From Bradyrhizobium nanningense (GTDB lineage Bacteria; Pseudomonadota; Alphaproteobacteria; Rhizobiales; Xanthobacteraceae): a stretch of DNA of 64,000 nucleotides. This document shows, in pieces, positions 6,990-40,681 of this stretch. Position numbers and translations under genes: made by a program. Where the stretch lies: NCBI RefSeq assembly GCF_004114535.1, contig NZ_LBJC01000033.1, positions 124,001-188,000 of the forward strand. The letters run 5' to 3'. Positions within the stretch are counted from its first letter, which is position 1. Every line of letters begins with the position of its first letter. The notes under the pieces were generated by a model, which was not told where the DNA came from, made no database searches, and saw only the letters and a list, made by a program, of their open reading frames with translations.

Positions 6990-9275
6990 ATGGTATATCG
7001 GCGCCGCAGATCCACGCAGATGCAGGCCGCAACCGAATCGGTTGCCGTGGCCCCGACTGCGCCGGTCGCGCGCCCGGCCAAGCCGCGCGCGCGCATGATG
7101 CGTCAATATGACCTCGTCGAGCGCGTCAGGTCCTACAATCCCAACACCAACGAAGACCTGCTGAACCGCGCCTATGTCTACGCCATGAAGGCGCATGGCT
7201 CGCAGACCCGCGCCTCGGGCGATCCGTATTTCTCGCACCCGCTCGAAGTGGCGGCGATTCTCACCGACCTGAAGCTCGACGACGCCACCATCGTGGCCGC
7301 GCTGCTCCACGACACGATCGAGGACACCGAGGCGACGCGGGCCGAGATCGATCAGATTTTCGGGCCGGAGATCGGCGCGCTGGTCGAGGGCCTGACCAAG
7401 CTGAAGCGGCTGGAACTGGTGTCGCGGGAGGCCAAGCAGGCCGAGAACCTGCGCAAATTGTTGCTGGCCATTGCCGACGATGTCCGCGTGCTTCTGGTCA
7501 AGCTCGCCGACCGTCTGCACAACATGCGTACGCTGGACTTCGTGCCGACGGAATCGCGCAGGCGCATCGCGGAGGAGACGCTCGACATCTATGCGCCGCT
7601 CGCGGGGCGCATGGGCATGCAGGAAATGCGCGAGGAGCTGGAGGATTTGTCCTTCCGCACCCTCGATCCCGAAGCCTATTCGGTGGTGATGCAGCGCCTG
7701 GACGCGCTCGCCGAACGCAACCGCAATCTGATCGGCGAGATCGAGGACCAACTGTCCAATAATTTGCGTCACAGGGGCTTGGGGGCGCGGGTCTATGGCC
7801 GCCGCAAGAAGCCGTTCTCGATCTGGACCAAGATGGAGCGCAAGTCGGTCGGCTTCGAGCAATTGTCCGACATCTTCGGCTTCCGGCTCGTCGTCAACGA
7901 CATCGAGGCCTGCTATCGCGCGCTCGGCATCGTCCACACCACCTGGCCGGTCGTGCCGGGGCGCTTCAAGGACTACATCTCGACGCCGAAGCAGAACGAC
8001 TACCGCTCGATCCACACCACGGTGATCGGCCCAGGCAACCAGCGCGTCGAGCTGCAGATCCGCACCGAGGCGATGGACCAGATCGCCGAGCGGGGTATCG
8101 CCGCGCACGTCTTCTACAAGGAAGACGTCGGCTCGCCGACCGAATTCCTCAAGCGCGAGTCGACTGCGTTCGCCTGGCTGCGCCACACCATTGGCATCCT
8201 CTCGGAGAGCGCCAATCCGGAGGAATTCCTCGAGCACACCAAGCTCGAACTGTTCCACGACCAGGTGTTCTGCTTCACCCCGAAGGGCAAGCTGATCGCG
8301 CTGCCGCGCCATGCCAACGTGATCGACTTCGCCTATGCCGTGCACACCGACGTCGGTAACAGCGCGGTCGGCTGCAAGATCAACGGCCAGTTCGCGCCGC
8401 TGTCCTCGGAGCTCCAGAACGGCGACGAGGTCGAGGTGCTGACCTCGGAAGCGCAATCGGCGCCGCCCTCGGCCTGGGAAACGCTTGCGGTCACCGGCAA
8501 GGCACGCGCCGCGATCCGCCGCGCCACGCGAACCGCGGTGCGCGATCAATATGCCGGTCTCGGCCGGCGCATCGTGGAGCGCCTGTTCGAGCGCGCCAAG
8601 ATCGAATATGCCGACGACAAGCTCAAGGGCGCGCTGCCGCGACTCGCACGGACCTCGATCGACGACGTGATGGCAGCCGTGGGGCGCGGCGAGATCAAGG
8701 CCTCCCACGTCGCACGTGCGATGTACCCCGACTACAAAGAGGAGCGCATCGCGCGCTACGGCGTCAAGAAAGGGCTTGCTGCCAAGCTCAAGGAAAAGTC
8801 GTCGGAGCAGCCGCGCAGCCCGGTCGCGATTCCGATCCGCGGCATCAATTCCGACCTGCCGATCAAGTTCGCGCCGAACGGCGGCGCCGTGCCGGGCGAT
8901 CGCATCGTCGGCATCGTCACGCCGGGCGAGGGCATTACGATCTACCCGATCCAGGCGCCGGCCCTGAAGGATTTCGAGGAGGAGCCCGAGCGCTGGCTCG
9001 ACGTCCGCTGGGACATCGAGGACTCCGCACCGCAGCGCTTCCCGGCCCGCATCAAGGTCGAGAACGTCAACGAGCCCGGCGCGCTGGCACAGATCGCGAC
9101 CGTGATCGCCGAGCATGACGGCAACATCGACAACATCAGCATGCAGCGCCGCTCACCGGACTTCACGGAAACGACGATCGATCTCGAAGTCTACGATCTG
9201 AAGCATTTGAGCGCGATTCTGGCCCAGCTGCGCGCGAAGGCGGTCGTCGCCAAAGTCGAACGTGTTAATGGATAG
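6990..9275 (+). CDS. rsh: Bifunctional (p)ppGpp synthetase/hydrolase (RelA/SpoT homologue)
   Basis: Rsh makes and degrades the alarmone (p)ppGpp. The 761-residue protein has all family domains in order: an HD hydrolase with His83 and the His107-Asp108 pair (LLHDTIED), a synthetase with PKQNDYRSIHT, a TGS domain (FCFTPKGKLIALP) and a C-terminal ACT domain. The synthetase carries RFKD (GRFKDYI), the RxKD version linked to bifunctional enzymes, rather than the ExDD of monofunctional RelA. An intact HD motif agrees with hydrolase activity. ATG 6990 is chosen for its upstream AGGA; an ATG at 7020 is possible. pdxJ follows. Confidence 0.96.
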   Translation: MVYRRRRSTQMQAATESVAVAPTAPVARPAKPRARMMRQYDLVERVRSYNPNTNEDLLNRAYVYAMKAHGSQTRASGDPYFSHPLEVAAILTDLKLDDATIVAALLHDTIEDTEATRAEIDQIFGPEIGALVEGLTKLKRLELVSREAKQAENLRKLLLAIADDVRVLLVKLADRLHNMRTLDFVPTESRRRIAEETLDIYAPLAGRMGMQEMREELEDLSFRTLDPEAYSVVMQRLDALAERNRNLIGEIEDQLSNNLRHRGLGARVYGRRKKPFSIWTKMERKSVGFEQLSDIFGFRLVVNDIEACYRALGIVHTTWPVVPGRFKDYISTPKQNDYRSIHTTVIGPGNQRVELQIRTEAMDQIAERGIAAHVFYKEDVGSPTEFLKRESTAFAWLRHTIGILSESANPEEFLEHTKLELFHDQVFCFTPKGKLIALPRHANVIDFAYAVHTDVGNSAVGCKINGQFAPLSSELQNGDEVEVLTSEAQSAPPSAWETLAVTGKARAAIRRATRTAVRDQYAGLGRRIVERLFERAKIEYADDKLKGALPRLARTSIDDVMAAVGRGEIKASHVARAMYPDYKEERIARYGVKKGLAAKLKEKSSEQPRSPVAIPIRGINSDLPIKFAPNGGAVPGDRIVGIVTPGEGITIYPIQAPALKDFEEEPERWLDVRWDIEDSAPQRFPARIKVENVNEPGALAQIATVIAEHDGNIDNISMQRRSPDFTETTIDLEVYDLKHLSAILAQLRAKAVVAKVERVNG

Positions 9276-9320
9276 GTGCATCTCGCATGCGCCGGTCCCT
9301 CTGATTCTGCGAGTCCTGAA

Positions 9321-10073
9321 ATGCCCGCTTCGAAGCTCCGCCTCGGCGTCAATATCGATCACGTCGCAACCGTGCGTAACGCGCGCGGCGGCCGCCATCC
9401 GGATCCGGTGCGGGCGGCGCTGCTGGCGATTGAGGCGGGCGCCGACGGCATCACCGCCCATTTGCGCGAGGATCGCCGCCACATCCGCGACGAGGACATG
9501 GCGAGGCTGAAGGCCGAGATCTCCAAGCCGCTCAATTTCGAGATGGCGGCGACCGACGACATGATGCGGATCTCGCTCGCCACCAAGCCGCACGCGGTGT
9601 GCCTGGTGCCGGAGCGCCGGCAGGAGGTGACCACCGAAGGCGGGCTGGACGTGGTCGGCCAGCATAACGCGCTCGCGCCCTATATCGCGCGGCTGACCGA
9701 CGCCGGCATTCGGGTCTCCCTGTTCATCGCCGCCGATCCCGCCCAGATCGAGATGGCGGCGCGGCTGCACGCGCCCGTGATCGAGATCCACACCGGCGCC
9801 TGGTGCGACGCCGTGGTCGACGGCCACACCGCCAAGGCCGAGACCGAATGGCAGCGGATCGTTGCGGGCGTGAAGCTGGCCACGGCCGCCGGGCTGGAGG
9901 TCCATGCCGGGCACGGGCTTGACTATACGACGGCGGAGACGATCGCGGCTCTGCCTGACATCATGGAGCTCAACATCGGCTACTACATGATCGGCGAAGC
10001 GCTGTTCGTCGGTCTTGCCGAGACGGTGCGCAGCATGCGCGCGGCGATGGACCGCGGCCGGAGCCGGGCGTGA
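9321..10073 (+). CDS. pdxJ: Pyridoxine 5'-phosphate synthase
   Basis: PdxJ closes the pyridine ring from 3-amino-1-hydroxyacetone phosphate and deoxyxylulose phosphate, the last step of the DXP-dependent vitamin B6 route. The 250-residue TIM barrel starts with [18 protein letters not shown], followed by [21 protein letters not shown] and the C-terminal VHAGHGLDY, all conserved active-site segments. The ATG at 9321 gives the family N-terminus; the frame is open back to 9276 without a good site. The stop overlaps the acpS start, so the two are coupled. Confidence 0.97.
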
Positions 10074-10489
10074 TCATCGGCATTGGCTCCGACCTCATCG
10101 ACATCACCCGCGTCGCCAAGGTGATCGAGCGCCATGGCGAGCGCTTCCTCGACCGCATCTTCACCGTGGCGGAGCGGGCCAAGGCGGAGCGCCGCGCCAA
10201 GAACGAGAAGATGGTGGTGGCGACCTACGCCAAGCGCTTCGCCGCCAAGGAGGCCTGCTCCAAGGCGCTCGGCACCGGGATCCGGCGCGGCGTGTGGTGG
10301 CGCGATATGGGGGTGGTCAATCTTCCGGGCGGCCGGCCGACCATGCAGCTGACCGGCGGCGCCCTGGCCCGGCTTCAGGCCCTGACGCCGGAAGGATTCG
10401 AGGCCCGGATCGACGTGTCGATCACCGATGACTGGCCGCTGGCGCAGGCCTTCGTCATCATTTCCGCCGTCCCGCTGGCCAAGTCCTGA
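10070..10489 (+). CDS. acpS: Holo-[acyl-carrier-protein] synthase
   Basis: AcpS transfers 4'-phosphopantetheine from CoA to apo-ACP. The 139-residue protein has the magnesium-binding Asp8 in [11 protein letters not shown] and the [14 protein letters not shown] helix with the second acidic ligand. The start is a GTG sharing bases with the pdxJ stop (GTGA). The lepB-rnc-era set follows after a 250-base gap, so acpS may be the last gene of its unit. Confidence 0.96.
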
Positions 10490-10504
10490 TCCTTACCGTG
10501 ATCG

Positions 10505-10535
10505 CTTTATAATTCTTATTTAAAATCAACGTCTT
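10505..10535 (+). promoter_or_regulatory. AT-rich patch, possible promoter region of lepB-rnc-era
   Basis: The gap between acpS and lepB opens with the only clearly AT-rich stretch nearby (gctttataattcttatttaa). It could be a promoter or UP-like element for the lepB operon. No clean -35/-10 pair is certain, and the remaining 200 bases hold no gene. Confidence 0.25.
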
Positions 10536-10739
10536 ACTCAGTTTGGGTGCGATCCTTGATTGCGTGGCCTCCGACAACCGTCTAAAAGTCCGCGGGCGCA
10601 AATCAGCCTGGGCGAATTCGGCTTTACGCCGGAATTGGCCCTCACTATCAGAATCAGGACAATCTCCTTGCGCCGCGAACCGGTGGGCTCTTCGCGGGAG
10701 GAGGGCGCTCTGTGACCGCCGGCCGGAATTGAGAGAGCA

Positions 10740-11504
10740 ATGAGCGTGACTTCGGGAACGAAAACTGAGAGCGGCGTCGGCGAAACGATCCGGGTTGTGA
10801 TCCACGCTCTCCTGATCGCGCTGGTGATCCGCACATTCCTGTTCCAGCCCTTCAATATCCCGTCCGGCTCGATGAAGGCGACGCTGCTGGTCGGCGACTA
10901 TCTGTTTGTCTCGAAATATTCTTACGGCTACAGCCACTATTCGATCCCGTTCTCGCCGCCGCTGTTCTCCGGGCGGATCTGGGGCTCGGACCCGGCCCGC
11001 GGCGACATCGTCGTGTTTCGCCTGCCGAAGGACGATTCCACCGACTACATCAAGCGCGTGATCGGCCTTCCCGGCGACCGCATCCAGATGCGGGATGGGC
11101 TGCTCTACATCAACGACACGCCGGTCGAGCGGCAGCGGATGAGCGAATATGTCGGCGAGGAGCCCTGCGGCTCGGAAGGCGGCGGCATCTCCCGGGTGAA
11201 GCGCTGGAAGGAGACACTGCCGAACGGCGTCTCCTATGAGACGCTCGACTGCGCCGACAACGGCTACGTCGACAACACCAACGTCTACACCGTCCCATCA
11301 GGCCATTTCTTCATGATGGGCGACAACCGCGACAACTCCACCGATAGCCGCTTTCTCGGCCAGGTCGGCTACGTGCCGAAGGAGAATCTGATCGGCCGCG
11401 CCCAGATGATCTTCTTCTCCATCGCCGAAGGCGAGCATGCCTGGATGTTCTGGCGCTGGCCGTGGGCGGTGCGCTGGAATCGCTTCTTCAAAATCGTCCG
11501 ATGA
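10740..11504 (+). CDS. lepB: Signal peptidase I
   Basis: LepB cleaves signal peptides at the outer face of the inner membrane. The 254-residue protein has one N-terminal membrane helix (about 17-35), then the catalytic Ser44 in PSGSM and Lys105 in YIKRVIGLPGD, and the later MGDNRDNSTDSR box. An insertion between the boxes contains two Cys residues. The start has GAGAG upstream. The stop overlaps the rnc start (ATGA). Confidence 0.96.
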   Translation: MSVTSGTKTESGVGETIRVVIHALLIALVIRTFLFQPFNIPSGSMKATLLVGDYLFVSKYSYGYSHYSIPFSPPLFSGRIWGSDPARGDIVVFRLPKDDSTDYIKRVIGLPGDRIQMRDGLLYINDTPVERQRMSEYVGEEPCGSEGGGISRVKRWKETLPNGVSYETLDCADNGYVDNTNVYTVPSGHFFMMGDNRDNSTDSRFLGQVGYVPKENLIGRAQMIFFSIAEGEHAWMFWRWPWAVRWNRFFKIVR

Positions 11505-27523: not shown

Positions 27524-28783
27524 ATGCAAATAACTTCGCGCCTTTCATTGACGAACTGGCTCGCCAGCCAGGGCCTTACGGGCCTGCCCGAACCCGAGCT
27601 GCTGCGCGGCTTCTGCGAGCGATGCCGCGCCGAGGGGCTCGCATTGTCGCGCGGCCTCGTCGTCATCGACACGCTGCATCCGATCTATGAGGGCCGCGCG
27701 TTCCGCTGGAGCGATACGCCGAGCAACGAGAGCGACGTCGTCGAGTACGGCTCGACGGCAGAGGGCGATGCGGCCAAGAACTGGCGCCGCTCGGTGTTCT
27801 ATCATTTGCTCGAGCATGGCCACGACGAGATGGTGATCGATCTCGCCGATGCGCCGTCGCTCGATTTCTCGCAGATCGGCGACCTCGCCGAACATGGCCA
27901 CCGGCATTTCCTGGCTTTCGTGCACCGCTTCGGCGAGAGCGGAGCGCTCGGGCAGATGGACTGCCTCTACTCCTATTGGACGACGCGGCGGGACGATGGC
28001 TTTACCGAAGCCGAACTTGCCGCGCTGCGCGATCTCGTGCCGGTGCTGGGTCTTGCGATCAAGTCGGCCCAGCAGGTCGACATCGTGCGCACGCTCGGCC
28101 GCGTCTATCTCGGCCGCGACGCCTCCGAGCAGGTGCTGCGCGGGCGGATCTCGCGCGGCGTCACCGAGCGCATCAACGCCGTGCTCTGGTACTCGGATCT
28201 GCGCGGCTCGACCGGGATCAGCGAAAGCATCGGCCCCGACGAGATCATCCCGTTCCTCAATGACTATGCGCAAGCCGTGATCGACGCGATTCACGAGGCC
28301 GGCGGCGATGTGCTCAAGCTGATCGGCGACGGCGTGCTTGCGATGTTCTGGGGCGAGGACATGGCGGATGCGCGGCGCGCGGCGCTACGCGCCGAGCACC
28401 TGTTCCGCAAGAATATCGCGGCGCTGAATGCCCGCCGGGCGGCGGAGGGGCGGCCGACGACGTCAGCCTATATCGGCCTGCATGTCGGGCAGGTTTTCTA
28501 CGGCAATATCGGCAGCGAGGACCGGCTCGACTTCACCGTGGTCGGTCCGACCGTGAACGAGGTCAGCCGTATCGCCTCGATGAGCCGCTCGGTCGACCGC
28601 GAATTGCTGGCGTCATCCGAGTTCTACAAGGGCCTCGATGCCACCGGGCGCCGTTATCTCGTCTCCACCGGCCGCTACGCGCTGCGCGGCATCGGCCGTG
28701 CGCAGGATCTCTACACGCTCGATCCTGATGTCGACGCGAGCGAGCCCGTGACGGGGAGCTACGAGCGGTACCTGGCGAATTAG
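27524..28783 (+). CDS. Class III adenylate/guanylate cyclase
   Basis: The 419-residue protein joins an N-terminal sensory-like region (1-190, no membrane helix) to a class III catalytic domain (about 215-400). The metal ligands Asp225 (YSDLRGST) and Asp269 (IGDGVLAMF) are present, and NEVSRIASMSR follows in the catalytic half. It should make cAMP from ATP as a homodimer; substrate choice is inferred from family only. The first 190 residues resemble the N-terminal part of other rhizobial cyclases of this layout. Confidence 0.9.
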   Translation: MQITSRLSLTNWLASQGLTGLPEPELLRGFCERCRAEGLALSRGLVVIDTLHPIYEGRAFRWSDTPSNESDVVEYGSTAEGDAAKNWRRSVFYHLLEHGHDEMVIDLADAPSLDFSQIGDLAEHGHRHFLAFVHRFGESGALGQMDCLYSYWTTRRDDGFTEAELAALRDLVPVLGLAIKSAQQVDIVRTLGRVYLGRDASEQVLRGRISRGVTERINAVLWYSDLRGSTGISESIGPDEIIPFLNDYAQAVIDAIHEAGGDVLKLIGDGVLAMFWGEDMADARRAALRAEHLFRKNIAALNARRAAEGRPTTSAYIGLHVGQVFYGNIGSEDRLDFTVVGPTVNEVSRIASMSRSVDRELLASSEFYKGLDATGRRYLVSTGRYALRGIGRAQDLYTLDPDVDASEPVTGSYERYLAN

Positions 28784-30139: not shown

Positions 30140-30261
30140 GGCGCATTTCCTGCAAAGTCGGGTTGGCGCCAATATTCGGCGCCGAGGGGCGCCAAACCCA
30201 CCCGCTTCCCGACAGGGCGGCGAACAACGGCCCGGGCGGGAACCCATGCCACTAGATGCAG

Positions 30262-30278
30262 TTGCAAATGAGTTGCAA
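30262..30278 (+). promoter_or_regulatory. Direct TTGCAA repeats upstream of mntH, possible Mur/Fur-family operator
   Basis: Two ttgcaa words start 11 bases apart, one helical turn (30262 and 30273), and end 28 bases before the mntH ATG. Rhizobial mntH genes are repressed by the Fur-family manganese regulator Mur, whose sites contain TGCAA-type words. The match is suggestive, not exact. Confidence 0.4.
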
Positions 30279-30306
30279 TAAGCCTCGACATCGGTATTCT
30301 CGTCGT

Positions 30307-31659
30307 ATGGATGCCCGATCGCCTGATTTGACCCCCGACACCGCTGGCTGGCGCACTGACGCGCCCGCCACCAAGAGCCTCCCCGAGGTCAACGCCACGG
30401 TCGCCATTCCGGCCGCGGGCCGCTGGTGGCGCCGGATGCTCGCTTTCGTCGGCCCGGGCTATCTCGTCTCCGTCGGCTATATGGACCCCGGCAACTGGGC
30501 GACCGACCTCGCCGGCGGTTCGAAGTTCGGCTACACGCTGCTCTCGGTCATCCTGCTCTCGAATTTGATGGCGATCCTGCTGCAATCGCTGGCGGCACGG
30601 CTCGGCATCGTCACCGACCGCGATCTCGCGCAGGCCTGCCGCGCCACCTATTCGCCGGCGGTGAACTTCCTGTTGTGGCTCGCCTGCGAGGCGGCGATCA
30701 TCGCCTGCGATCTCGCCGAAGTCATTGGCACCGCGATCGCACTGAAACTCCTGTTCGGCATTCCCCTGATCGGAGGCGCGCTGCTCGCCGCGCTCGATGC
30801 CTTCCTGCTGCTGCTCCTGATGAACCGCGGCTTCCGTTTCCTCGAAGCCTTCGTCATCGCGCTGCTGGCCGTGATCGCGGTCTGCTTTGCGGTCCAGATC
30901 GTGGCCGCCGCGCCGCCGGTCGCGGAGGTCGTGCACGGCTTCATGCCGAAGGCCGAGATCTTCACCAACCCCGAGATGCTCTACATCGCGATCGGCATCA
31001 TCGGCGCGACCGTGATGCCGCATAATCTCTATCTGCACTCGTCGATCGTGCAGACGCGCGCCTATGAGCGCAACGATGAAGGCCGGCGCGAAGCAATCAA
31101 ATGGGCGACGACTGACTCGACCATCGCGCTGATGCTGGCGTTGTTCATCAACGCTGCGATCCTCGTCGTCGCCGCGGCGACATTCCACAAGAGCGGCCAT
31201 TCGGATGTCGCCGAGATCGGGCAAGCGTTCGAGCTGTTGTCGCCGCTCCTGGGCCTCGGCATCGCCTCGACGCTGTTCGCGGTGGCGCTGCTCGCCTCCG
31301 GCCTGAACTCGACGGTGACGGCGACGCTCGCCGGCCAGATCGTGATGGAGGGCTTTCTCGATCTGCGCCTGCCGAGCTGGGCGCGCCGCCTGCTCACGCG
31401 CGGCATCGCCATCGTCCCCGTGATCGTCGTCACCGCGATCTATGGCGAGCGCGGCACGGCGGATTTGCTGGTGTTCAGCCAGGTCGTGCTGTCGATGCAG
31501 TTGCCCTTCGCCGTCATCCCGCTGGTCCGCTTCGTCTCCGACCGCCGCAAGATGGGAAAGTTTGCGATTCCCGCCTACGTCGCCGCGATCGCGTGGATCG
31601 TCGCTGGCGTGATCGTGATCCTGAACGTGAAGCTGTTGTCCGATACATTGTTTGGATAA
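30307..31659 (+). CDS. mntH: Nramp-family manganese/iron transporter MntH
   Basis: MntH imports Mn2+ (and Fe2+) with protons. The 450-residue protein has eleven membrane helices, the metal-binding DPGN of helix 1 ([11 protein letters not shown]) and MPHN of helix 6 ([12 protein letters not shown]). The start at 30307 places a 45-residue soluble N-terminus before helix 1; an in-frame start at 30256 would overlap the possible operator and is less likely. Confidence 0.95.
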
Positions 31660-32080
31660 GCGGCTGCCGCTCTGTCTGTACCGAGCACCCTGCGACCGAT
31701 TGGTCCTGCGCAAGCCCGGCCGTACAAGTTTCGCGCGAACCCTGTTCGGTCCTTTCGGAAATCCGCGCCATTCGGGGCGACGGCTTTCGTCGGAACCCAT
31801 GAACTACGGCTTTTCAATTGGTGCGAAGAGGGTATACTACCTTCAATTGCTGATAGGCCGCATATTGCAAATAGGCCCTGTTATGACAATGCGTTTTTCA
31901 GGATTGGTTTTTCTCCCGGCGGGATAATCGGCGGTCCCGCGCCGGATTAAGTGCGCCGATCGCATTTTCTCCGGATACGTCTATGAGTTGTGCGCGACGT
32001 CGGCGCGCGGAGCCAGTGGTGAGACCGTTGGCTTGATGGATTGATTTTGAACTGCGCGGGTTCACGTCCGGGAGGGGACG
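31660..32080. other. Intergenic region upstream of the cyclase-P450-DyP cluster
   Basis: No gene is seen. The middle is AT-rich for this DNA and has two pairs of short direct repeats: ttcaattg at 31813 and 31842 (29 bases apart) and ataggcc at 31853 and 31871 (18 bases apart). They lie 205-270 bases before the leader ORF and could be regulator sites or chance. The promoter of the cluster must lie here. Confidence 0.45.
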
Positions 32081-32143
32081 ATGATCAAGCCAGAAAGCGT
32101 TGATTGCTGCGTTGAAATCATTGATGAGCGTGTCCTGCCGTGA
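32081..32143 (+). CDS. Leader ORF of 20 codons coupled to the cyclase gene
   Basis: ATG 32081 has a very strong ribosome binding site (gggagggg, 3 bases upstream). It encodes MIKPESVDCCVEIIDERVLP and ends in TGA sharing bases with the GTG start of the next gene (GTGA). The cyclase start itself has no good site of its own, so ribosomes arriving from the leader may start it. Two adjacent Cys and a run of acidic residues are the only features. Whether the peptide has a function is unknown. Confidence 0.55.
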   Translation: MIKPESVDCCVEIIDERVLP

Positions 32144-35100
32144 CCAAGTGTCCCGCATGTTCAGCCCGTGTTGCTCGCGAGCATCGCTTCTGCTCTCAGT
32201 GCGGCGCGCGCCTCGATCACGCCGTGGAGCAGCTCTCCGCTTCATCGATTGCCAGCCCAATCGACCGCGAGGCGCGGGTTGTTCCGCTGCACGATCATGC
32301 GACGGTTCGGTCACAGATGTTGACCGAAAACAAGCAGGTCAGCGTTCTCTTTGTCGACGTCTGCGACTCCACATCACTGCTCCAGCACTCCGACCCCGAG
32401 GAATCCCGCAACTATCTCGGCAAGGCGCTGAACCACTTGGCCGAAGCGGTCGGGACCTATGGCGGCACGGTGAGCCAGTTGCTCGGCGACGGGCTCGTCG
32501 CCTTGTTCGGCGCGCCCGTGGCGCAGGAGGATCACGCCCTGCGGGCGTGCCTTGCCGCTCTCAAGATGCAGCGAGCAAGCATTCCCGGCCACGCGGTTCA
32601 GGGCGTGGCCAGCCCGACGCTGCGCATCGGCATCAATTCGGGCGAAGTCCTGGTCGGCGTCGTCGGACAATACGGCTGGTCGCACTACGGTGCGGACGGC
32701 AAGACGATTCACCTTGCATCGCGGCTCGAAAAGATGGCTCCGCCCGGCGGCATTCTGATCAGTGCCGCGACGCAGCGCCTCGTCGCGCAGCAGATCGACA
32801 CGCGGCCGGTCGGGACCCGATCGATACGAGGGCTGGATGATCCGGTCGAACTCCATGAGGTCATGGTCGCCACCGAAAGTTCAGCTGCGGCGCCGCTGAC
32901 GCGCAAGCAACGCTGGGCGCCCCTGGTCGGCCGCGAAGATTCCTTGCGGATCCTGGCCGGGGATCTCGACATCGTTCGAACCGGTGCGATGCGGACGATC
33001 GGTCTGTGCGGCGATGCCGGGATCGGGAAGTCACGCTTGATCGCCGACTGGATCGCCGCGCTTGCAAGTCAGGGCATGGAGGTCTGCCTTTCGCAGGCGA
33101 GAGGTTATGCGAGCGCGCGCGCCTACAGCACCGCCGCGGACCTGATCGCAAGCCTGGCCGGGTTGCCGCAAGCAAGCGTGACGGATGCGCAATCCGTCAG
33201 GCAGTCCCTGGTCGCCGAATGGGCCGCCGAGGGCGCCGCGCATCTTGCGGCGATCAATGACTTGTTGGGTCTGGCGGCGCCGGACCAGGCTTGGCTGGAG
33301 CTCAACCCGGTCCAGCGGCGGCGCCGAATTGGCGACGCATTGCTGTGGCTCGTGCGCAGGCGCGCCCAAGCGGGCCCGTTCGTGCTCGTGCTAGAGGACG
33401 TTTTCCTGGCTGACCGCGAGAGCCGGCGGTTGTTCGAGGCTCTGCTTCCAAAGCTTCAGGGACTACCGATCCTCGTTTGTGTCAGCTATCGACCCGATTT
33501 CGACCATCAGTGGCGCCAGGCCTCCTGGTTTGCGGAGCGTGTGATCGAGCCTCTCCGCGACGGCGAGATGCTCAGGCTCGCGCGTGCCTTGCTGGGGGAT
33601 GATCTGTCCGTGCTCGGCGTCATGAGCGAATTGGTCGCGCGCGCCGACGGCAATCCCTTCTTCCTGGAGCAACTGGTCATTACGCTGATCGACGAGGGAT
33701 CGCTCGAAGGAACGCCGGGTGCGTACCGCCTGCAGAGGCCGCTCGGAGAGCTGCGCGTGCCGGGCTCGATCGCCGCGGTGATCGGCGCGCGCGTCGACAG
33801 GCTGCCCGAAGCTGCCAAGTCCGCGCTCGAGGCCGCGGCAATCCTCGGCGATCCCATCACGCGCGAACTGATCGCGGCGATGCAGGCCGTGGACCTTGGG
33901 CGTGCGGAAGAATTGCTGGGTCTGTGCGTTGCATCCGGATTGTTGACGGGGCCGGATCAGGCGCGCGGTCCGCTCGAGCAGCACACGTTCGCGTTTCGCC
34001 ACGCATTGGTGCGCGATGTCGTGCTCGGCGCGCTCACGCGCGCACGGCTCAAGGCGCTGCATCGACAGGCCTTCCTGGCCCTGCATGCGCGGCCAGGGGC
34101 GGTCGAGGCGGATGTCGCGCCGGCGCTGGCGCACCATGCTTTCAAGGGAGAGGAATGGGAGCAGGCGGCGAGATTCACCGTCAAGTCGATGGCCCGGGCC
34201 ATCTCGCGCTCGGCCAACCAGGAAGCCCTGCAGCTGTTCGAGAGGGGTCTTCAGGCAGCCCGCCGTGTGGATGACGCCTCGGTCGCGCAGACCTTGGAGC
34301 TTGCGCTTCGCCTGGAAGCCATCGGGGCGATGCTGGCTCTCGGGCAGATCGACGAGATCTTCAGCAATATGGAGCGTGCGGAAGCCATCGCGGTGCAGCT
34401 GAACGATCAGCGCGCACGAGCGGCGGTGTCGACCGAGACGGCGGTGTTCCTGTGGATGCGCGGACGCTTCGAGCAAGGGCTGCGTTATGCTTCACGGGGT
34501 CTCGAGGCGGCCTGCCTCGCGCAGCGCCGCCACATGATGATGGCGGCGCATCAGACCCGCCTGATGAACCTCCACGCGCTCGGTCGATATGCAGAGGCCG
34601 CGGTGGAAGGCCAGGTTCTGCTCTCCGACTACGGACCGGAGCTGTCGGCGCATGTCGTGCAACCCGGATGGGCCGCGATCCCCATCATCAATCTCTATGC
34701 GTTTCATGCCAGCACGCTCTGGCGGCTGGGCGACGGTGCAACCGCACACGCGTTCTGTGCCAAGGCCTATCAGATCTTATCGAACATCAACCATCCTTAT
34801 TCCCGTCTGCTGATCGACACCGTCCAGTCGCAGATCTGGATCGAGAGCGGGGAGCTCGATCGTGCCGAGACCTTGATGCGCACGGGCGTGCAGCAATGCA
34901 TGACGCACAACGTTCCGACCATGCTTTCGGTTTGCACCGGCGTTTTGGGCAGCGCGCTCACGCACAACGGCAAGGCCGCCGAGGCGGCGGCGATGCTGGA
35001 GAAAGGATTCGCCGATCGCATCTACGAGGCGGCCGGACCCTACGGCAGGACGTTCATGCGCGTGAGCCTGGGCGTCGCTTATCGCAAGCTCGATCGGCTC

Positions 35101-35337
35101 GACGATGCTATCGCGGTCGGTCGCAAGGCCGTCGAGGACGCCGCCGAAGAATACGGCCACCAGACCGAAGCCCTGTACGAGCTTGCGGAAACCTTGCGGC
35201 GTGCCGGCGATCTGGCAGGCGCCGAAGCGCATTTCAAGCGAGCGGCCGAGGCCGCGGAGCGTCTGGGCATGCCTCACTATCAAGGACGGGTCGCCGCGGC
35301 CCTCGCGGATTGGCGGAAGGACGGGTATGCAGCATGA
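32140..35337 (+). CDS. Zinc-ribbon/class III cyclase/NTPase/TPR multidomain protein
   Basis: The 1065-residue protein starts with a zinc ribbon (Cys4, Cys7, Cys18, Cys21). A class III nucleotide cyclase domain (about 62-240) has metal-binding Asp73 (FVDVCDST) and Asp117 (LLGDGLVALFG). A STAND/AAA-like NTPase follows with Walker A GDAGIGKS (291-298) and a Walker B-like VLVLEDV. The C-terminal 400 residues are helical repeats of TPR type, likely the sensing part. No membrane segment is seen. The first product of the cluster, it is joined to the P450 gene by an ATGA overlap, so it may sense a signal and regulate the haem enzymes. GTG 32140 keeps the whole zinc ribbon. Confidence 0.9.
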   Translation: MTKCPACSARVAREHRFCSQCGARLDHAVEQLSASSIASPIDREARVVPLHDHATVRSQMLTENKQVSVLFVDVCDSTSLLQHSDPEESRNYLGKALNHLAEAVGTYGGTVSQLLGDGLVALFGAPVAQEDHALRACLAALKMQRASIPGHAVQGVASPTLRIGINSGEVLVGVVGQYGWSHYGADGKTIHLASRLEKMAPPGGILISAATQRLVAQQIDTRPVGTRSIRGLDDPVELHEVMVATESSAAAPLTRKQRWAPLVGREDSLRILAGDLDIVRTGAMRTIGLCGDAGIGKSRLIADWIAALASQGMEVCLSQARGYASARAYSTAADLIASLAGLPQASVTDAQSVRQSLVAEWAAEGAAHLAAINDLLGLAAPDQAWLELNPVQRRRRIGDALLWLVRRRAQAGPFVLVLEDVFLADRESRRLFEALLPKLQGLPILVCVSYRPDFDHQWRQASWFAERVIEPLRDGEMLRLARALLGDDLSVLGVMSELVARADGNPFFLEQLVITLIDEGSLEGTPGAYRLQRPLGELRVPGSIAAVIGARVDRLPEAAKSALEAAAILGDPITRELIAAMQAVDLGRAEELLGLCVASGLLTGPDQARGPLEQHTFAFRHALVRDVVLGALTRARLKALHRQAFLALHARPGAVEADVAPALAHHAFKGEEWEQAARFTVKSMARAISRSANQEALQLFERGLQAARRVDDASVAQTLELALRLEAIGAMLALGQIDEIFSNMERAEAIAVQLNDQRARAAVSTETAVFLWMRGRFEQGLRYASRGLEAACLAQRRHMMMAAHQTRLMNLHALGRYAEAAVEGQVLLSDYGPELSAHVVQPGWAAIPIINLYAFHASTLWRLGDGATAHAFCAKAYQILSNINHPYSRLLIDTVQSQIWIESGELDRAETLMRTGVQQCMTHNVPTMLSVCTGVLGSALTHNGKAAEAAAMLEKGFADRIYEAAGPYGRTFMRVSLGVAYRKLDRLDDAIAVGRKAVEDAAEEYGHQTEALYELAETLRRAGDLAGAEAHFKRAAEAAERLGMPHYQGRVAAALADWRKDGYAA

Positions 35338-36620
35338 AACTCTCGACCTATGAACCCGACGCGTTGCCGCCGGGAGCGCGCAGTCTCTCCTACGGTGTGT
35401 TCTGCTGGCTCAACCGTCACGTTACGGTGTTGCGCGCGCTCGGTGCGCTGCTTCGGCGCTGGCCCGCTATAGGCGGTCGGTTCGGCTTGGTGGCACGCGC
35501 CAGCGCGGTGAAGGATGTGCTGATGCGCACGCGCAGCTTTTCCAATACCGCGCATGCGGCCAACATGGTCTCGGGAGACTACCTCATCGGGATGGATCCG
35601 GGCCCGACCTATTCAGCCGATCGGGATCTGGTCCATGCGCGGTTGGCGGCTCTGGACGTCCCCGCCGATTCCGACGTCGAGGCGCAGCGGCGCATCAAGG
35701 CTCTGCGCGGGCGCGGAGCGGCCGGATTCGATCTGATCGACGAGTACCTGATGTGGGTCGTATTCCGCGCCATGCGGCCGCTGTTCGGCGCGGCAACGGG
35801 GGCGGTGGTGGCGGGATCAGTGACCGACGCTTCAAAGGGCGATGTCGACGAAGATTTGCAACGACAGTACATGCTCGAGATCCGCTATGTCGCAGGGCAG
35901 CTCCTGGCCGGCAGCCTCGCGACACTCGATCTTCGCCGGCGAGCCGAGGCCTGCGGGGATGCGCTGCAGGCGCGGATCGATCGTGTAACCGGCACCATCG
36001 GCGCCGCGTGGGGTGTCAAGAGCTCCTCGGCGGACATTGAACGGAACGCTGTCGGCCTTGCCTGGATCTCGCATCCGGTCACCGTCCAGTCGGGGGCCCT
36101 CGTCGTCCAGGAGCTGTTGGGACGACAGAAGGTCTATGACGAATTGTGGTCGCTGGCCGACAAACTCGGCGAGCCCGCCGTCTGGGCCGATCCCGAGTTC
36201 CGCAAGATCGTGCGCAACCATGTGCTCGAACTGATGCGCTTCCGGCCGATCTTTCCGCTGCTGGCGCGCGACGTGCCGCGCGACACGGAAATGACGACCG
36301 GGGCGCGACAAAACGCCGGATGTCCAGGCGGCGGCAAGGTTTCGCTGCTGTCGATCGCTGCTCTGTTCGATTCCCGCGTGGTTCCACAGAGCGGGCGCTA
36401 TTGCCCGGACCGCGATTGGGGCAACGAAGATGCCTTGCGGTATCTCATGTTCGGATATGGCTACCGCCAATGTCCGGCGCGGGATTACGCGGTGGAGATC
36501 CTGACAAGCGCCCTAATCGGCCTGCTTACCTTGCCGCGGCTGCAACTGGCGCGCGGTGAAGGCAAGGCCATCGCGTATGACGGCCCGCTGATGCTGTGCA
36601 TGCGCATGCGTACCACTTGA
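35334..36620 (+). CDS. Divergent cytochrome P450
   Basis: The 428-residue protein is called a P450 from two invariant motifs: ExxR as Glu299-Leu-Met-Arg302 in the K helix, and the haem loop FGYGYRQC with thiolate Cys380, Arg378 and Gly376 at canonical spacing. The I helix (about 236-262) reads GLAWISHPVT where common P450s have AGx(D/E)T, so the proton-relay acid is missing. Peroxide-using or isomerising P450s (CYP152, CYP74) also lack that pair. Overall similarity to common bacterial P450s looks weak. The start overlaps the cyclase stop. No ferredoxin or reductase gene is nearby. Confidence 0.8.
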   Translation: MKLSTYEPDALPPGARSLSYGVFCWLNRHVTVLRALGALLRRWPAIGGRFGLVARASAVKDVLMRTRSFSNTAHAANMVSGDYLIGMDPGPTYSADRDLVHARLAALDVPADSDVEAQRRIKALRGRGAAGFDLIDEYLMWVVFRAMRPLFGAATGAVVAGSVTDASKGDVDEDLQRQYMLEIRYVAGQLLAGSLATLDLRRRAEACGDALQARIDRVTGTIGAAWGVKSSSADIERNAVGLAWISHPVTVQSGALVVQELLGRQKVYDELWSLADKLGEPAVWADPEFRKIVRNHVLELMRFRPIFPLLARDVPRDTEMTTGARQNAGCPGGGKVSLLSIAALFDSRVVPQSGRYCPDRDWGNEDALRYLMFGYGYRQCPARDYAVEILTSALIGLLTLPRLQLARGEGKAIAYDGPLMLCMRMRTT

Positions 36621-36639
36621 GCGAGCGGAGAACACGGCC

Positions 36640-38451
36640 ATGCTCGAGATCGTCCGGCAGCAGATGATCTGCATCGTTGCGCCAGGCTGGACCGGCGGCG
36701 CTGAGGTTTCAAAGCAACTTCACGATGCCTTGGATGCCCTGCTGGACGACGTCGCAATGGTGCACTTCGCCTCGATCGGGCTGCTCCCGGCCTTGGCTGG
36801 TGCGCCGAACCAGCAGCCGGTGCTCGTGCTCGAGCTCGCGGTGGAGGAGGGCTTCCGCCCTTACGACCTGTTGTATCGCCTCGTCTACCATCACGACGGC
36901 GCGATGTGGGCGCTGTTCGGCTCCATGGTCGCTCCGGGCGTCGCCGTGCCCACGGCCAAGGACAAGCAGCAATTGCTGAGCCAATTGATGAGCTGGCACA
37001 GCATCGCCGACGGCGGCTTCGTCGGCGCCCGGGACCGGTCGGTCCGGCAGATCAAGATGGAGAGCGACCTGCTGGAGCAGACGCGCATCGAAGCGCGGAA
37101 GCTGAAGCCGAAATACGGCAACGACCGCACCGCCTTCGCGCTGGCGCTGGCACGTTGGGCTTATACCAATCCCCGCTTCGGATGGGCGGCCACGCCTGCG
37201 CCGCGATCCTATTGGCGCGGGAAGGGGGCGAGCATCGGTGCGAAGCTCGCTTATCCCGTGGCGGCGATCGTGCTGTGGTTCGTCGTACTCGGGATCGTCT
37301 GGACACTTCCGCGCGCCTATAACTGGTTCTTCGGCGAACCGGGGCACGTGGGGCGGGCCATCGAAGACGCCGTCACCAAGACGAGTGAATGCCTGCTGAC
37401 GATCAGCTGGCACGGGTTGCTGGCGTTCGCGGTCATTGCATTCCTTGTCTGGCTGTTCCTGGTGCCGCTGCCCGCTCAATTCGTGTCCTGGAGGCGCTGG
37501 CTCAACAGCGTTCAGCAAGAGCTCGATCGGCCGACGGACACGCTCTCGTCGCTGGCCACCTATGCGGGCGGCTGGATCATCGGCGTGCCGCTGCTGCTGG
37601 CCATCGCCGCGTGCGCGATCGCCTACACTTTCGCTCCATTGGCCTATGCGCTGGCTCCGGATTATATGCACACTGTCATCGAACCGAAGCTGCCAAAGCT
37701 GACCGGATTGCAGATCACGGGGATCGCGGTCGTCGCGATCGCCGCGGTGCTTGGCATCGGCACGCTGTTCTACTGGCTCAATCGCTATTTCACGGGGCTG
37801 AGCAAAAAGTTCTTTCATCCGCTCGAAGAGGACGTCCCGCGGGCCCAGCAGATTCATCCGTCGGTCGAACGATGCGAGGCCGACCTGGTCGGTGGCACCC
37901 AGCACATGTTCAGCCTCACCGAGCTGCGCGGTCCGCAATGGTGGAGCGCGTGGTGCATTCGACAGGCGCTGCGCATCGTGACCTTTGCCGGACGGGTGTT
38001 CTTCACGCAAGGCTGGCTCGGCAATGCGCCGGGCATCCATTTCGGCCATTGGCACATCATCGACAACGGTCGCCGCTTTCTGTTCTGCTCGAACTATGAC
38101 GGCAATTTCGGCGGCTATCTCGACGACTTCATCAACGGCGCGGCCGTCGGCACCACGCTGGCCTGGCGCTGGACCGAGCTTCATCCGCGCGCCCCGGCCC
38201 TGGAGGGACAGCCCGGCATTGCAAAGGCCCGTAGTTTTCCGCCGACGCGCTTTGTCATCTTCCGCGGCGTGAAGTGCGAGCTGAGATTCAAATCCTATGC
38301 GCGCGACAGCATGCTGCCGCATCTCTACCGTTTCGACGCCTGCAACCGGACGGTCGACCAGATCAACCTCGCCACGGGGCTGCGTGACGCCTTGTTCGGC
38401 GAGCGCAACGAGAAGAACGACGATCTGATCATGAGGGCCATCGAGACATGA
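36640..38451 (+). CDS. Four-helix membrane protein with two soluble domains, unknown function
   Basis: The 603-residue protein has a soluble N-terminal region (1-195), four membrane helices (about 204-222, 257-276, 312-332 and 357-380) and a C-terminal soluble region (390-603). The C-terminal part holds HWHIIDNGRRFLFCSNYDG and GGYLDDFI; the N-terminal part has a looser version (VHFASIGLLPAL ... PVLVLELAVEEG), so the two may be related alpha/beta domains. From memory such segments occur in proteins near peroxidases and may share the DyP-type ferredoxin fold; that is inference. GGAG precedes the ATG. It lies between a P450 and a DyP gene in one operon. Confidence 0.75.
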   Translation: MLEIVRQQMICIVAPGWTGGAEVSKQLHDALDALLDDVAMVHFASIGLLPALAGAPNQQPVLVLELAVEEGFRPYDLLYRLVYHHDGAMWALFGSMVAPGVAVPTAKDKQQLLSQLMSWHSIADGGFVGARDRSVRQIKMESDLLEQTRIEARKLKPKYGNDRTAFALALARWAYTNPRFGWAATPAPRSYWRGKGASIGAKLAYPVAAIVLWFVVLGIVWTLPRAYNWFFGEPGHVGRAIEDAVTKTSECLLTISWHGLLAFAVIAFLVWLFLVPLPAQFVSWRRWLNSVQQELDRPTDTLSSLATYAGGWIIGVPLLLAIAACAIAYTFAPLAYALAPDYMHTVIEPKLPKLTGLQITGIAVVAIAAVLGIGTLFYWLNRYFTGLSKKFFHPLEEDVPRAQQIHPSVERCEADLVGGTQHMFSLTELRGPQWWSAWCIRQALRIVTFAGRVFFTQGWLGNAPGIHFGHWHIIDNGRRFLFCSNYDGNFGGYLDDFINGAAVGTTLAWRWTELHPRAPALEGQPGIAKARSFPPTRFVIFRGVKCELRFKSYARDSMLPHLYRFDACNRTVDQINLATGLRDALFGERNEKNDDLIMRAIET

Positions 38452-39884
38452 AGCACGCTCCGCGACTCTCCGAGCAAAGTCACGACGTCCAGGGCATGTT
38501 GAAGAGCGGCTTCGGCTGGCTCAAATCCAGCCGTTTCTGGCTGCTGACGATCCGCGACGGCTGCGAGGACCAGGCGCGAGCCTGGCTCTCGCGTCTGGTC
38601 GACAGCAAGCTGGTCGTCAGTGCCAAATGCATCGCGAAGGGCAAGACCAAGCCGGAAGCGTCGATCGAAGAAGCCGTGTCGGTCGCTTTCAGCTTCGCAG
38701 GGCTCAAGAAACTCGGCTGCACCGAGGCCGAAACGCATCCGTTTCCGACGGCTTTCAGCAGCGGCATGGGGAGCGCATTGCGCCAAGATCTGTTGAGAGA
38801 CGCTCCGCGGGATGAATGGCGCTGGTCGGATGTCGAGGGCGCCGACGGCCGCCAGACTGTTCACATTCTCGTTGCGCAATGGTGGGTGCTCGGCGCAACC
38901 GCGCGAATGGAGGAGCCGGATCCGGCTGTGTTCGTCGTCAGGACCGTCGAGAACAATCCCTGCTCGTTTGCAGATAAGGACGGCGGATTGCGTGAGCCGT
39001 TCGGCTTCCGCGACGGCCTCGCGCAACCCGTGATCCGCGATCTCAGGGAAGAGGAGGGAGCCGCGCTGCGTCAGGCGCGAAAAGACGCCGGTCAGTTCTA
39101 TGAGGATCGTGTCGTCGAGCCCGGCGAATTCATTCTGGGCTATCGCAACGAGTATGACGAACTCACCTACTGCCCCAACGTGAATGAGTGGCCGCAATCG
39201 GGAGACCGCTTCACGCTGAACGGGAGCTACTTGGCGGTGCGGCAGATCGAGCAGTATGTCGATGCGTTCAGGCAGTTCGAAGCCGCAAATGACCAACAGA
39301 CCTGCGAAAGACTGATGGGACGTCGGAAGGACGGCATGCCGCTCGGATGGCAAGGTCCTCTGGGGTCGAATTCGGCGGCGGACGCCTTCCGTTATCGCGT
39401 CGAGGACGCAAATGGCTTCGTCTGTCCGAAGGGCGCGCATATCCGCCGATCCAACCCGCGCGACTCCTTGGGGATCGATGTGCAATCGAGCATCAAATCA
39501 TCGAAGCTGCACAGGCTGCTCCGCCGCGGGCGGCCTTATCGCGAGAAGACCGAGGCAGGAGATCGCGAAGGCATATTCTTCATCGCGTGCAATGCCGATC
39601 TCGAGCGCCAGTTCGAATTCATCCACCAGCGCTGGCTGCAAAACCCTCGTTTCGGCGCTCTCGACAAGCAGGACGATCCGATCGTGGGGTCACAGCCCAG
39701 CGGCAGGACCTTCACCGTTCCGGGATCGCCGAGCGGCAGCGAGGTCACACTGGCTTCGTTTACAGGCGCGCGTGGAGGCGGCTACTTCTTCCTGCCCGGG
39801 ATCGCGGCGCTCAAATTCATCGCCGAAGGTCGCGCCGGCGCGAAGCTCGGCCCAATGCACCGCCTTGAGGCGGCCGCCTCCTGA
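38448..39884 (+). CDS. DyP-type peroxidase (long form)
   Basis: This 478-residue haem peroxidase uses hydrogen peroxide to oxidise organic substrates. The key residues are seen: GFRDG with catalytic Asp189, proximal haem ligand His331 in GAHIRRSNPR, distal Arg359 in LLRRG, and IFFIACNADLERQFEFI. It is longer than the roughly 300-residue bacterial class A/B enzymes and nearer to the long class C/D forms. No Tat or Sec signal is present, so it should stay in the cytoplasm. Its start overlaps the upstream stop (ATGA), and it ends the four-gene unit, facing bpt with a 20-base gap. Confidence 0.92.
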   Translation: MKHAPRLSEQSHDVQGMLKSGFGWLKSSRFWLLTIRDGCEDQARAWLSRLVDSKLVVSAKCIAKGKTKPEASIEEAVSVAFSFAGLKKLGCTEAETHPFPTAFSSGMGSALRQDLLRDAPRDEWRWSDVEGADGRQTVHILVAQWWVLGATARMEEPDPAVFVVRTVENNPCSFADKDGGLREPFGFRDGLAQPVIRDLREEEGAALRQARKDAGQFYEDRVVEPGEFILGYRNEYDELTYCPNVNEWPQSGDRFTLNGSYLAVRQIEQYVDAFRQFEAANDQQTCERLMGRRKDGMPLGWQGPLGSNSAADAFRYRVEDANGFVCPKGAHIRRSNPRDSLGIDVQSSIKSSKLHRLLRRGRPYREKTEAGDREGIFFIACNADLERQFEFIHQRWLQNPRFGALDKQDDPIVGSQPSGRTFTVPGSPSGSEVTLASFTGARGGGYFFLPGIAALKFIAEGRAGAKLGPMHRLEAAAS

Positions 39885-39904
39885 AAGGCACGATTCCGGA
39901 AGTC

Positions 39905-40681
39905 TTAGTCCTGCGGCTCGGACGCTGCATCGCCCTGCGCGTCGATGCGCAGCCAGCCCGAGGGCGCGAGGCGCTGCTGCGGCAGGAAGCGGGCCTTGTA
40001 GTCCATCTTCTTGGAGCCCTCGATCCAGTAGCCGAGATAGACGTAAGGCAGCCCTTGCCGGCGGGCGCGGGCAATGTGGTCGAGGATCATGAAGGTGCCC
40101 ATCGAGCGGCTGACCTGGCTCGGCTCGAAGAACGAATAGACCATCGACAGGCCGTCGCTGAGCACATCGGTCAGCGCCACCGCGATCAGCTCCTCGCCGC
40201 GGCCGGTGAGACCGCTGTCGGGGCCGCGCTTGCGGTATTCGATGATGCGGGTCTCGACGTGGCTGTCCTCGACCATCATGGCGTAGTCGAGCACGGTCAT
40301 GTCTGCCATGCCGCCGTGGCGATGGCGGGCGTCGAGATAGGCCCGGAATACGGAATATTGCTCGGAGGTCGGCACCGCGCTGCGCTGCTCGCCGATGATG
40401 TCGGCATTGCGCGCCATCACCTTCCGGAAGTTGCGGGAGGGGCGGAACTCATTGGCGATGACCCGGACCGAGACGCAGGCGCGGCACTGGTCGCAGGCCG
40501 GCCGGTAGGCGATTGACTGGCTGCGGCGGAAGCCGCCATGGGTCAGGAGGTCATTGAGGTCGCCGGCCCGGTCCCCGACCAGATGCGTGAACACCTTCCG
40601 CTCGTGCCGGCCCGGCAGATAGGGGCAGGGGGAGGGCGCCGTAAGGTAAAACTGTGGGGTGTCGCGCGAGTGCTGGGTCAA
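39905..40681 (-). CDS. bpt: Aspartate/glutamate leucyltransferase (arginyltransferase-like)
   Basis: Bpt transfers leucine from tRNA to N-terminal Asp or Glu, marking proteins for ClpS/ClpAP. The 258-residue protein has [14 protein letters not shown] with its Cys, the [23 protein letters not shown] cluster of Cys residues and the C-terminal GNAT-like half with YVYLGYWI. The start is a TTG at 40681, which gives the usual N-terminus; AGG lies upstream. Confidence 0.93.

Follow-up and report, generated by a model that had tools for sequence, protein, structure and literature searches.

The gene unit in the window

Four consecutive genes on the forward strand of Bradyrhizobium nanningense DNA look like a real, apparently undescribed machine, perhaps one that processes oxidised lipids. 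They lie in a 64-kb stretch, hereafter the window, and encode in turn a putative sensor (ORF1), a divergent cytochrome P450 (ORF2; P450), a protein with four predicted transmembrane helices (ORF3) and a DyP-type peroxidase (ORF4; DyP). This reading draws on the gene set and its conservation, on fusion of the components, on the linkage between DyP and a partner domain found in ORF3, on the alternation of the P450 with a catalase-like protein, on the loss of the acid-alcohol pair from the P450, on the retained DyP residues and on the cyclase and CRP-type neighbours seen in relatives.

All features are on the + strand. ORF1 (32140..35337; 1065 residues) combines a zinc-ribbon segment at residues 3-25 (32146..32214; Pfam E 4e-4, below cut-off), a class III cyclase domain at residues 64-233 (32329..32838; Pfam guanylate cyclase E 4e-21), an AAA_16 NTPase domain at residues 261-446 (32920..33477; E 9e-14) and a TPR_12 match (E 2e-10). 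ORF2 (35334..36620; 428 residues) is followed by ORF3 (36640..38451; 603 residues) and by ORF4 (38448..39884; 478 residues). The domains named in the original prediction are borne out by Pfam for the cyclase, AAA_16 and TPR parts of ORF1 and for the DyP of ORF4, with the P450 divergent and the zinc ribbon below cut-off.

Direct reading of the sequence also confirms the predicted spacing of three four-base stop-start overlaps and one 19-base gap. A leader reading frame of 20 codons with an ATG start (32081..32143) shares GTGA with the GTG start codon of ORF1 at 32140, the ORF1/ORF2 and ORF3/ORF4 junctions are both ATGA overlaps, and the 19 bases separate ORF2 from ORF3; the overlaps among ORF1-ORF4 were read in the window. 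The leader, predicted to be coupled to the unit, is indeed present in the window with its overlap but is not constant: of 19 loci, the window among them, 13 retain the 20 codons and the four-base overlap and six have an altered frame or length, for which reason it was rejected as a conserved element. No Rfam match to a structured RNA was found within 31500-40000, and promoter and terminator scans gave no excess over shuffled sequence.

Conservation of the gene set

Relatives of the unit were dissected using profiles of the four proteins; numbers prefixed by L label the comparison loci. ORF3 is matched in 41 of 195 genomes of the genus, 19 of which (the window's included) hold orthologues at 56-100% identity, the remainder being weaker, and in 16 of 149 genomes of the family. 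The closest named relatives are Bradyrhizobium, and two of the 19 orthologous loci are split over contigs. In the near clade (window, L068-L072 and L076-L087) all 18 uncut loci have the four genes in identical order and direction, a count that excludes L073, L074 and L075, which are cut by contig ends.

A distant clade comprises 12 loci from five genera, with ORF1 identities of 28-31% (27% for one truncated gene). Here the P450, ORF3 and DyP genes stand in a row and the cyclase gene is convergent on the 3' side. Cyclase, ORF3 and DyP genes are present in all 12 and the P450 in 11, that of L091 being lost to a contig end; the P450 of L056 is partial. Clustering of ORFs of at least 110 residues from these loci returned the module genes as the common clusters, along with a CRP regulator in six, an unannotated cluster in five and smaller ones; other widely shared clusters we read, from their coordinates, as overlapping frames of module genes. 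A further arrangement occurs in L097 and L099, where cyclase and P450 genes precede an ORF3-DyP fusion, split in L099.

The chromosomal site was compared in 16 Bradyrhizobium genomes picked by hand, four carriers and 12 non-carriers, around an arginyltransferase (ATE) gene. In the window this gene follows the unit (39908-40681), and an Nramp transporter gene precedes it (30256-31659). DyP adjoins ATE in all four carriers, while in 10 of the 12 non-carriers it is the Nramp gene that adjoins ATE, no more than about 0.5 kb away, giving an empty site; the other two have neither Nramp nor DyP there. Because the Nramp gene remains where the module is absent, a functional link between the two is doubtful. 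Conservation, fusion and block-wise absence from an otherwise intact site together bear out the claim that the genes form one unit, and comparison of the gene set across genomes, proposed as a check with the original prediction, finds it co-conserved in other genomes.

Fusions of the components

In 17 loci the P450, partner domain and DyP form a single polypeptide, encoded by open frames of 1410-1694 codons, as in Pararhizobium qamdonense (1423 residues) and Sulfitobacter sp. SK025 (1620 residues). The order of domains in the fusions is that of the genes in the operon. Joining of separate genes in one chain is standard evidence of joint function. Every one of the 17 fusions is preceded by a TPR protein of one family. 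In the 12 fusion loci compared by clustering, only two genes recur in all. Other combinations are a DyP-P450 fusion in L215 and, in L142, a catalase-like domain joined to a DyP, another catalase-like gene lying close by (L142:3182-4423 and 8655-11387).

Several surroundings may be recorded. In L096 the gene for the TPR sensor is broken in two, with about 1.4 kb between the pieces (L096:11713-14926), and has probably decayed, the fusion frame next to it being open. A protein with a caspase domain (Peptidase_C14) is encoded divergently from the TPR sensor of one P450-partner-DyP fusion (L100:13797-15599), and an Hsp90-family gene divergently from an ORF3-DyP-P450 row (L058:6086-8218). Rhizobium plasmids (L021-L024) carry ORF3-DyP fusions or pairs in which no P450 was found, neighboured by genes for DNA/RNA non-specific endonuclease, S8 or serine protease, PLD-like and CHAT proteins.

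ORF3 and the DyP-partner domain

ORF3 matches no family above cut-off in Pfam or NCBIfam. Hydropathy reveals four hydrophobic stretches between residues 197 and 381 (37228..37782), and none in ORF1, ORF2 or ORF4. By eye, the alignment shows that the C-terminal domain (37873..38448) and the N-terminal region share one pattern, HF-x-S/R, a strand ending N-F/Y-D-G and a helix, so that ORF3 can be described as a duplicated domain around four helices. The predicted four-helix membrane protein therefore needs qualification: the hydrophobic stretches are there, but on sequence evidence most of the protein consists of a soluble domain, present twice, of a kind that accompanies DyP, and the helix-bearing stretch is absent or much shorter, judged by length, in small and two-domain relatives (helices themselves having been scanned in the window protein).

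In Deinococcus radiodurans, Streptomyces and several proteobacteria this partner domain is a standalone small protein, encoded next to DyP or one gene away from it. Two small genes in tandem encode it in other loci (e.g. L130, L145, L148, L150 and L151), and L139, L141, L142 and L212 have a two-domain form 435-502 residues long. Scanned standalone relatives have no match above cut-off in Pfam (five scanned) or NCBIfam (four scanned), and comparison of the ORF3 profile with solved chains gave no convincing relative. That the ORF3 core might be a degenerate DyP was rejected, since profile comparison with the DyP alignment returned a probability of 0.8%. From the strand-helix pattern we expect a ferredoxin-like fold. 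The plasmid NZ_OV024759.1 of Deinococcus radiodurans (L129, 4806-8039) holds a compact trio of small partner protein, DyP and catalase-family protein, which is a tractable standalone version of the partner/DyP system.

In a phylum sample the partner domain was found in 26 of 398 genomes, with DyP adjoining in all 26, two of these loci being short. A class sample had it in 12 of 385 genomes and yielded nine new loci, eight with DyP and the ninth at a contig end. Pooled, 34 of 35 loci have DyP adjacent to the partner domain or separated from it by a single gene, the thirty-fifth lying at a contig end.

The haem enzymes

The ORF4 DyP scores 44.6 bits against Dyp_perox_C (cut-off 20, E 2e-11) and falls just below cut-off for TIGR01413 (92.6 vs 100.5 bits). 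D189 (distal, in GxxDG), H331 (proximal) and R359 (distal) are invariant in 28 aligned DyPs, an alignment of pieces of at least 350 residues and thus without L020, L063, L023 and L099; like those of ORF3 and the P450, it uses selected loci. The window DyP is probably active and, because it has no hydrophobic N-terminal segment, probably cytoplasmic. The genome has a single match to this DyP. To our knowledge, the natural substrates of DyP peroxidases are mostly unknown.

ORF2 is truly divergent, as its Pfam P450 score lies below cut-off (E 9e-4). The family profile nevertheless matches solved P450s to 1e-38, and among solved chains it matches macrolide-modifying and other bacterial hydroxylases best. 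The hallmarks of the family are present: E299 and R302 of EXXR are nearly invariant, and the haem-thiolate Cys380 (36471..36473) is invariant, among 25 aligned sequences. In the I-helix, by contrast with conventional O2-activating monooxygenases, the acid-alcohol pair (D/E)T was found in none of 56 module P450s (44 readable and 12 added; L056, which has no readable I-helix, and five further P450 loci stand outside the count). As a control, 10 of 12 other distinct P450s of the same genome have the pair (one P450 lacked the motif by search and one match was unconvincing; a 96-residue fragment was omitted and duplicates were merged by eye). The window and near clade have HPVT (36072..36083) at this position, the distant clade GGAT-like sequences, Skermanella-like loci PPQP-like ones and most others (I/V/A)PT(T/N)-like ones, the P-x-T relatives including IPTT and VPTN.

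A 2026 comparison of dioxygenase-fused P450s (PMC13049297), in its available part, ties the acid-alcohol Thr to O2 activation in conventional P450s, reports nonpolar residues at the distal position in TXS and 8S/9S-AOS, and describes '(V/A)PxT' in the same helix of a fungal 9S subfamily, the P450 partner of 9S-dioxygenase. The P-x-T pattern of the window and many relatives resembles this fungal sequence. By sequence the module P450s look more like peroxide-processing P450s than like monooxygenases, which is a statement of resemblance and not of membership. The missing pair would fit peroxide use rather than O2 plus a reductase, and in this respect the prediction of two haem enzymes able to use peroxide gains support.

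The P450 is not the only possible third component. Across the 35 pooled loci a P450 was detected in 20, a catalase-like protein in eight, both in none and neither in seven; the 20 include L209 (a frame-broken piece at a contig end) and L212 (opposite strand), and three of the seven are short or cut. Under independence the absence of overlap has a chance of about 3 in 10,000 (hypergeometric), a figure that ignores descent between loci and was obtained with search profiles built from module loci. A Tyr at what we take to be the haem-ligand motif is kept in 10 of 10 catalase-like proteins, and beyond their Pfam matches the relationship to catalase rests on similarity to two founding sequences.

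The putative sensor and CRP-type regulators

ORF1 keeps both Asp motifs of the cyclase metal site, FVD and GDG, whose Asp residues presumably bind the metal, and a Walker A motif. Its own genome contains 24 matches, mostly to the cyclase domain, six of them (ORF1 included) over most or much of the length. In a small tree, with five paralogues, all from that genome, the ORF1 proteins of the near and distant clades are separated from the paralogues. The cyclases of L097/L099 and of L150 lie on other branches, and L216 bears another cyclase-NTPase-TPR sensor; because the L097/L099 and L150 cyclases derive from other branches, such sensors may have joined these modules more than once. A second, shorter class III cyclase gene (419 residues) lies at 27524-28783 of the window, 3.3 kb ahead of the unit, and profile-matched copies occur at similar distance in many near-clade loci, e.g. 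L068-L072.

The predicted cyclase/STAND-type sensor is seen in the window as cyclase and NTPase domains, but the cyclase is not obligatory: the TPR protein preceding the fusions has a cyclase domain in five of 17 loci and another N-terminal domain in 12, so the cyclase was rejected as a universal part of the module. All five cyclase-bearing loci have a CRP-type regulator gene facing the 3' end of the fusion in convergent orientation; none was found in the 12 without cyclase. CRP-type genes also flank six of the 12 distant-clade loci (two confirmed by Pfam, the others by profile). In L097 a transporter with a cNMP-binding domain, identified by Pfam, follows the unit, and a similar ORF after L099 matches the CRP profile. 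Where the TPR protein lacks a cyclase, its N-terminal domain weakly resembles the DNA-binding domain of EmbR (E 0.0087; AfsR next, 0.17) and is possibly DNA-binding; Pfam scans of four of these proteins gave TPR and chance-level matches. Taken together, this suggests that the sensor controls transcription, via a cyclic nucleotide and CRP or directly.

A proposed function and its rivals

Our preferred reading, which we hold tentatively, is a membrane-held peroxidase and a hydroperoxide-processing haem enzyme acting on a lipid-like substrate and switched by a second-messenger sensor. The four genes would encode one unit, a cytoplasmic two-haem oxidation module anchored at the inner membrane, together with its sensor. 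ORF3, through its two partner domains, would tether DyP, and via DyP the P450, to the membrane. DyP would oxidise a hydrophobic, probably lipid-like substrate, or make an oxidised or hydroperoxide intermediate, which the P450, having no O2-activating residues, would next rearrange or relieve of its peroxide, a step likened to those of fungal dioxygenase-linked P450s and catalase-related allene oxide synthases. The NTPase/TPR part of ORF1 would sense a signal, and a cyclic nucleotide with a CRP-type regulator would set expression of the unit. In this scheme we infer the chemistry, the substrate, the order of steps, complex formation, location and the direction of regulation. P450 and catalase families are both known users of lipid hydroperoxides in oxylipin routes; since they alternate in the module as well, a hydroperoxide intermediate is preferred. 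The lipid-like character of the substrate is proposed from two things, the membrane anchor and the oxylipin analogy.

A number of observations weigh against this reading. On the peroxidase side, we know of no citable fatty-acid dioxygenase activity of a DyP; in fusions L020 (Sulfitobacter) and L063 the profile detects the second half of the DyP only, and in a wider alignment of 57 DyP pieces the distal Asp motif is unseen in these two and in separated halves of split genes. No usable model of ORF3 or its C-terminal domain came from AlphaFold, with predicted local distance difference test (pLDDT) values of 40 and 32. The distant-clade P450s retain the Thr without P-x-T, L100 is the one exception seen to the retention of EXXR and Cys, having lost both Glu and Arg, and the acid-alcohol pair may be absent from P450s for other reasons. 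Among the catalase-like proteins the presumed distal His is kept in only six of 10, and of nine scanned two reach the Pfam catalase cut-off and four have no match at all. As for the sensor, Arg is kept in ORF1 but Gln and His stand at what we take to be the canonical Lys and Asn positions, and these replacements make cyclase activity uncertain; the cyclase gene of L077 is apparently frame-broken near its end; and no CRP gene was found within the 64-kb window. Because the five cyclase-type fusion loci are probably close relatives, the CRP contrast of 5/5 against 0/12 may represent a single change, or one or two evolutionary events. More generally, common descent of the loci means that the counts are not independent observations.

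The main rival, though on balance unlikely, is peroxide defence, in which DyP with the catalase-like protein or a peroxide-using P450 would remove H2O2 or organic peroxides at the membrane and the sensor would be an oxidative-stress switch. The replacement of the P450 by a catalase-like protein in eight of 35 loci agrees with this, as do the Nramp neighbour and the company of DyP and a catalase-family protein kept by the standalone form in Deinococcus radiodurans. A P450 is, however, a poor scavenger, a dedicated scavenger leaves the presence of P450 and DyP in one chain unexplained, and the Nramp gene is also kept in 10 of 12 genomes without the module.

Less probable again is a tailoring operon for a small hydrophobic natural product, with the P450 an ordinary monooxygenase. 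While the best matches of the P450 profile among solved chains, the macrolide-modifying and other bacterial hydroxylases, would suit such a role, no recurrent scaffold-forming gene was present among ORFs of at least 110 residues in the 12 distant loci, just two genes recur throughout the 12 fusion loci, and the acid-alcohol pair is absent from the module P450s (small ferredoxin genes were not searched for).

We consider it improbable, too, that the unit is an anti-phage or self-damage module in which the cyclase/NTPase sensor would trigger oxidative attack on the membrane of its own cell. ORF1 resembles PADLOC models of Pycsar cyclases (best 1.6e-10), one fusion has a caspase-like gene beside it, and the Rhizobium relatives have protease, CHAT, PLD or nuclease genes as neighbours. 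Any class III cyclase would, however, be expected to match the Pycsar cyclase models, and ORF2-4 match no PADLOC model; a defence system was rejected on these grounds, ORF1 having weak PycC matches and ORF2-4 no cognate effector model. Moreover, all four carriers tested share one chromosomal site, and 12 of 17 fusion loci have a sensor with another, possibly DNA-binding, domain in place of the cyclase. That the genes are chance neighbours in a gene-dense genome, short gaps being common in bacteria, can be dismissed because they recur together across genera, rearranged and fused.

The preferred lipid reading, if true, would mean that bacteria have arrived convergently at a route to oxidised lipid products, here controlled by a second messenger. 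Whatever the substrate, a protein domain with no Pfam or NCBIfam model stands beside DyP almost everywhere it was found here, giving DyP peroxidases a concrete partner and a testable pathway. Since the one-polypeptide versions can be expressed and assayed as single enzymes, the cellular role of these DyPs is directly testable.

Comparison with known systems

No description of a DyP-P450 unit or of the partner domain was found in the open-access literature, among the matches listed, subscription papers and preprints being outside its scope. The part of PMC11719350 that was covered has no passage on DyP, catalase-related or CYP152 proteins.

Known DyP systems include EfeB of EfeUOB and the DyP cargo of encapsulins. 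The module DyP shares their fold and haem residues, but reaches 42.2 bits against the 428 of the EfeB/deferrochelatase model TIGR01412 and so does not belong to that family; across the loci of the two clades compared, no genes other than those of the module are shared throughout (no search was aimed at encapsulin or iron-uptake genes). For ORF1 the nearest comparison is with TOMM kinase/cyclase fusions and cyclase-AAA-TPR proteins. It aligns with residues 264-1264 of TIGR03903 at 214 bits, against a cut-off of 706, and Pfam shows no kinase domain in it (TOMM genes were not searched for).

The P450s of oxylipin pathways (CYP74, PGIS, fungal AOS and LDS) act on fatty-acid hydroperoxides without a reductase; what bears on such a role for the module P450s is their missing acid-alcohol pair. 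The module resembles the fusions of dioxygenase and P450 in fungi (linoleate diol, allene oxide and epoxy alcohol synthases) and the pairing of COX with PGIS or TXS: two haem domains share a chain or pair closely, the P450 has lost the usual residues for O2 activation and, in one fungal subfamily, the I-helix has P-x-T (PMC13049297, available part). The bacterial module differs in that its peroxidase is a DyP rather than COX-like, the partner domain intervenes and the P450 comes first; the two fusions scanned with Pfam have no N-terminal COX-like haem peroxidase domain, their DyP being C-terminal, and the module is known here from genes alone. The coral lipoxygenase-catalase fusions (AOS-LOX and HPL-LOX; PMC5617202, in the part consulted) similarly join a catalase-related haem protein to an oxidising enzyme. 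In the module DyP takes the place of lipoxygenase, and the catalase-like proteins, divergent and known from sequence, alternate with the P450.

It is conceivable, though doubtful, that the module is a bacterial counterpart, built from unrelated parts, of these dioxygenase-P450 and lipoxygenase-catalase enzymes of lipid-mediator synthesis: DyP would make an oxidised intermediate, an interchangeable P450 or catalase-like protein would convert it, the unnamed partner domain would keep the two together at the membrane, and the output would be governed by a switch of the cyclase-CRP or DNA-binding TPR type. Oxylipin-like molecules for signalling or protection would then have a third architecture, assembled independently of the fungal and coral ones.

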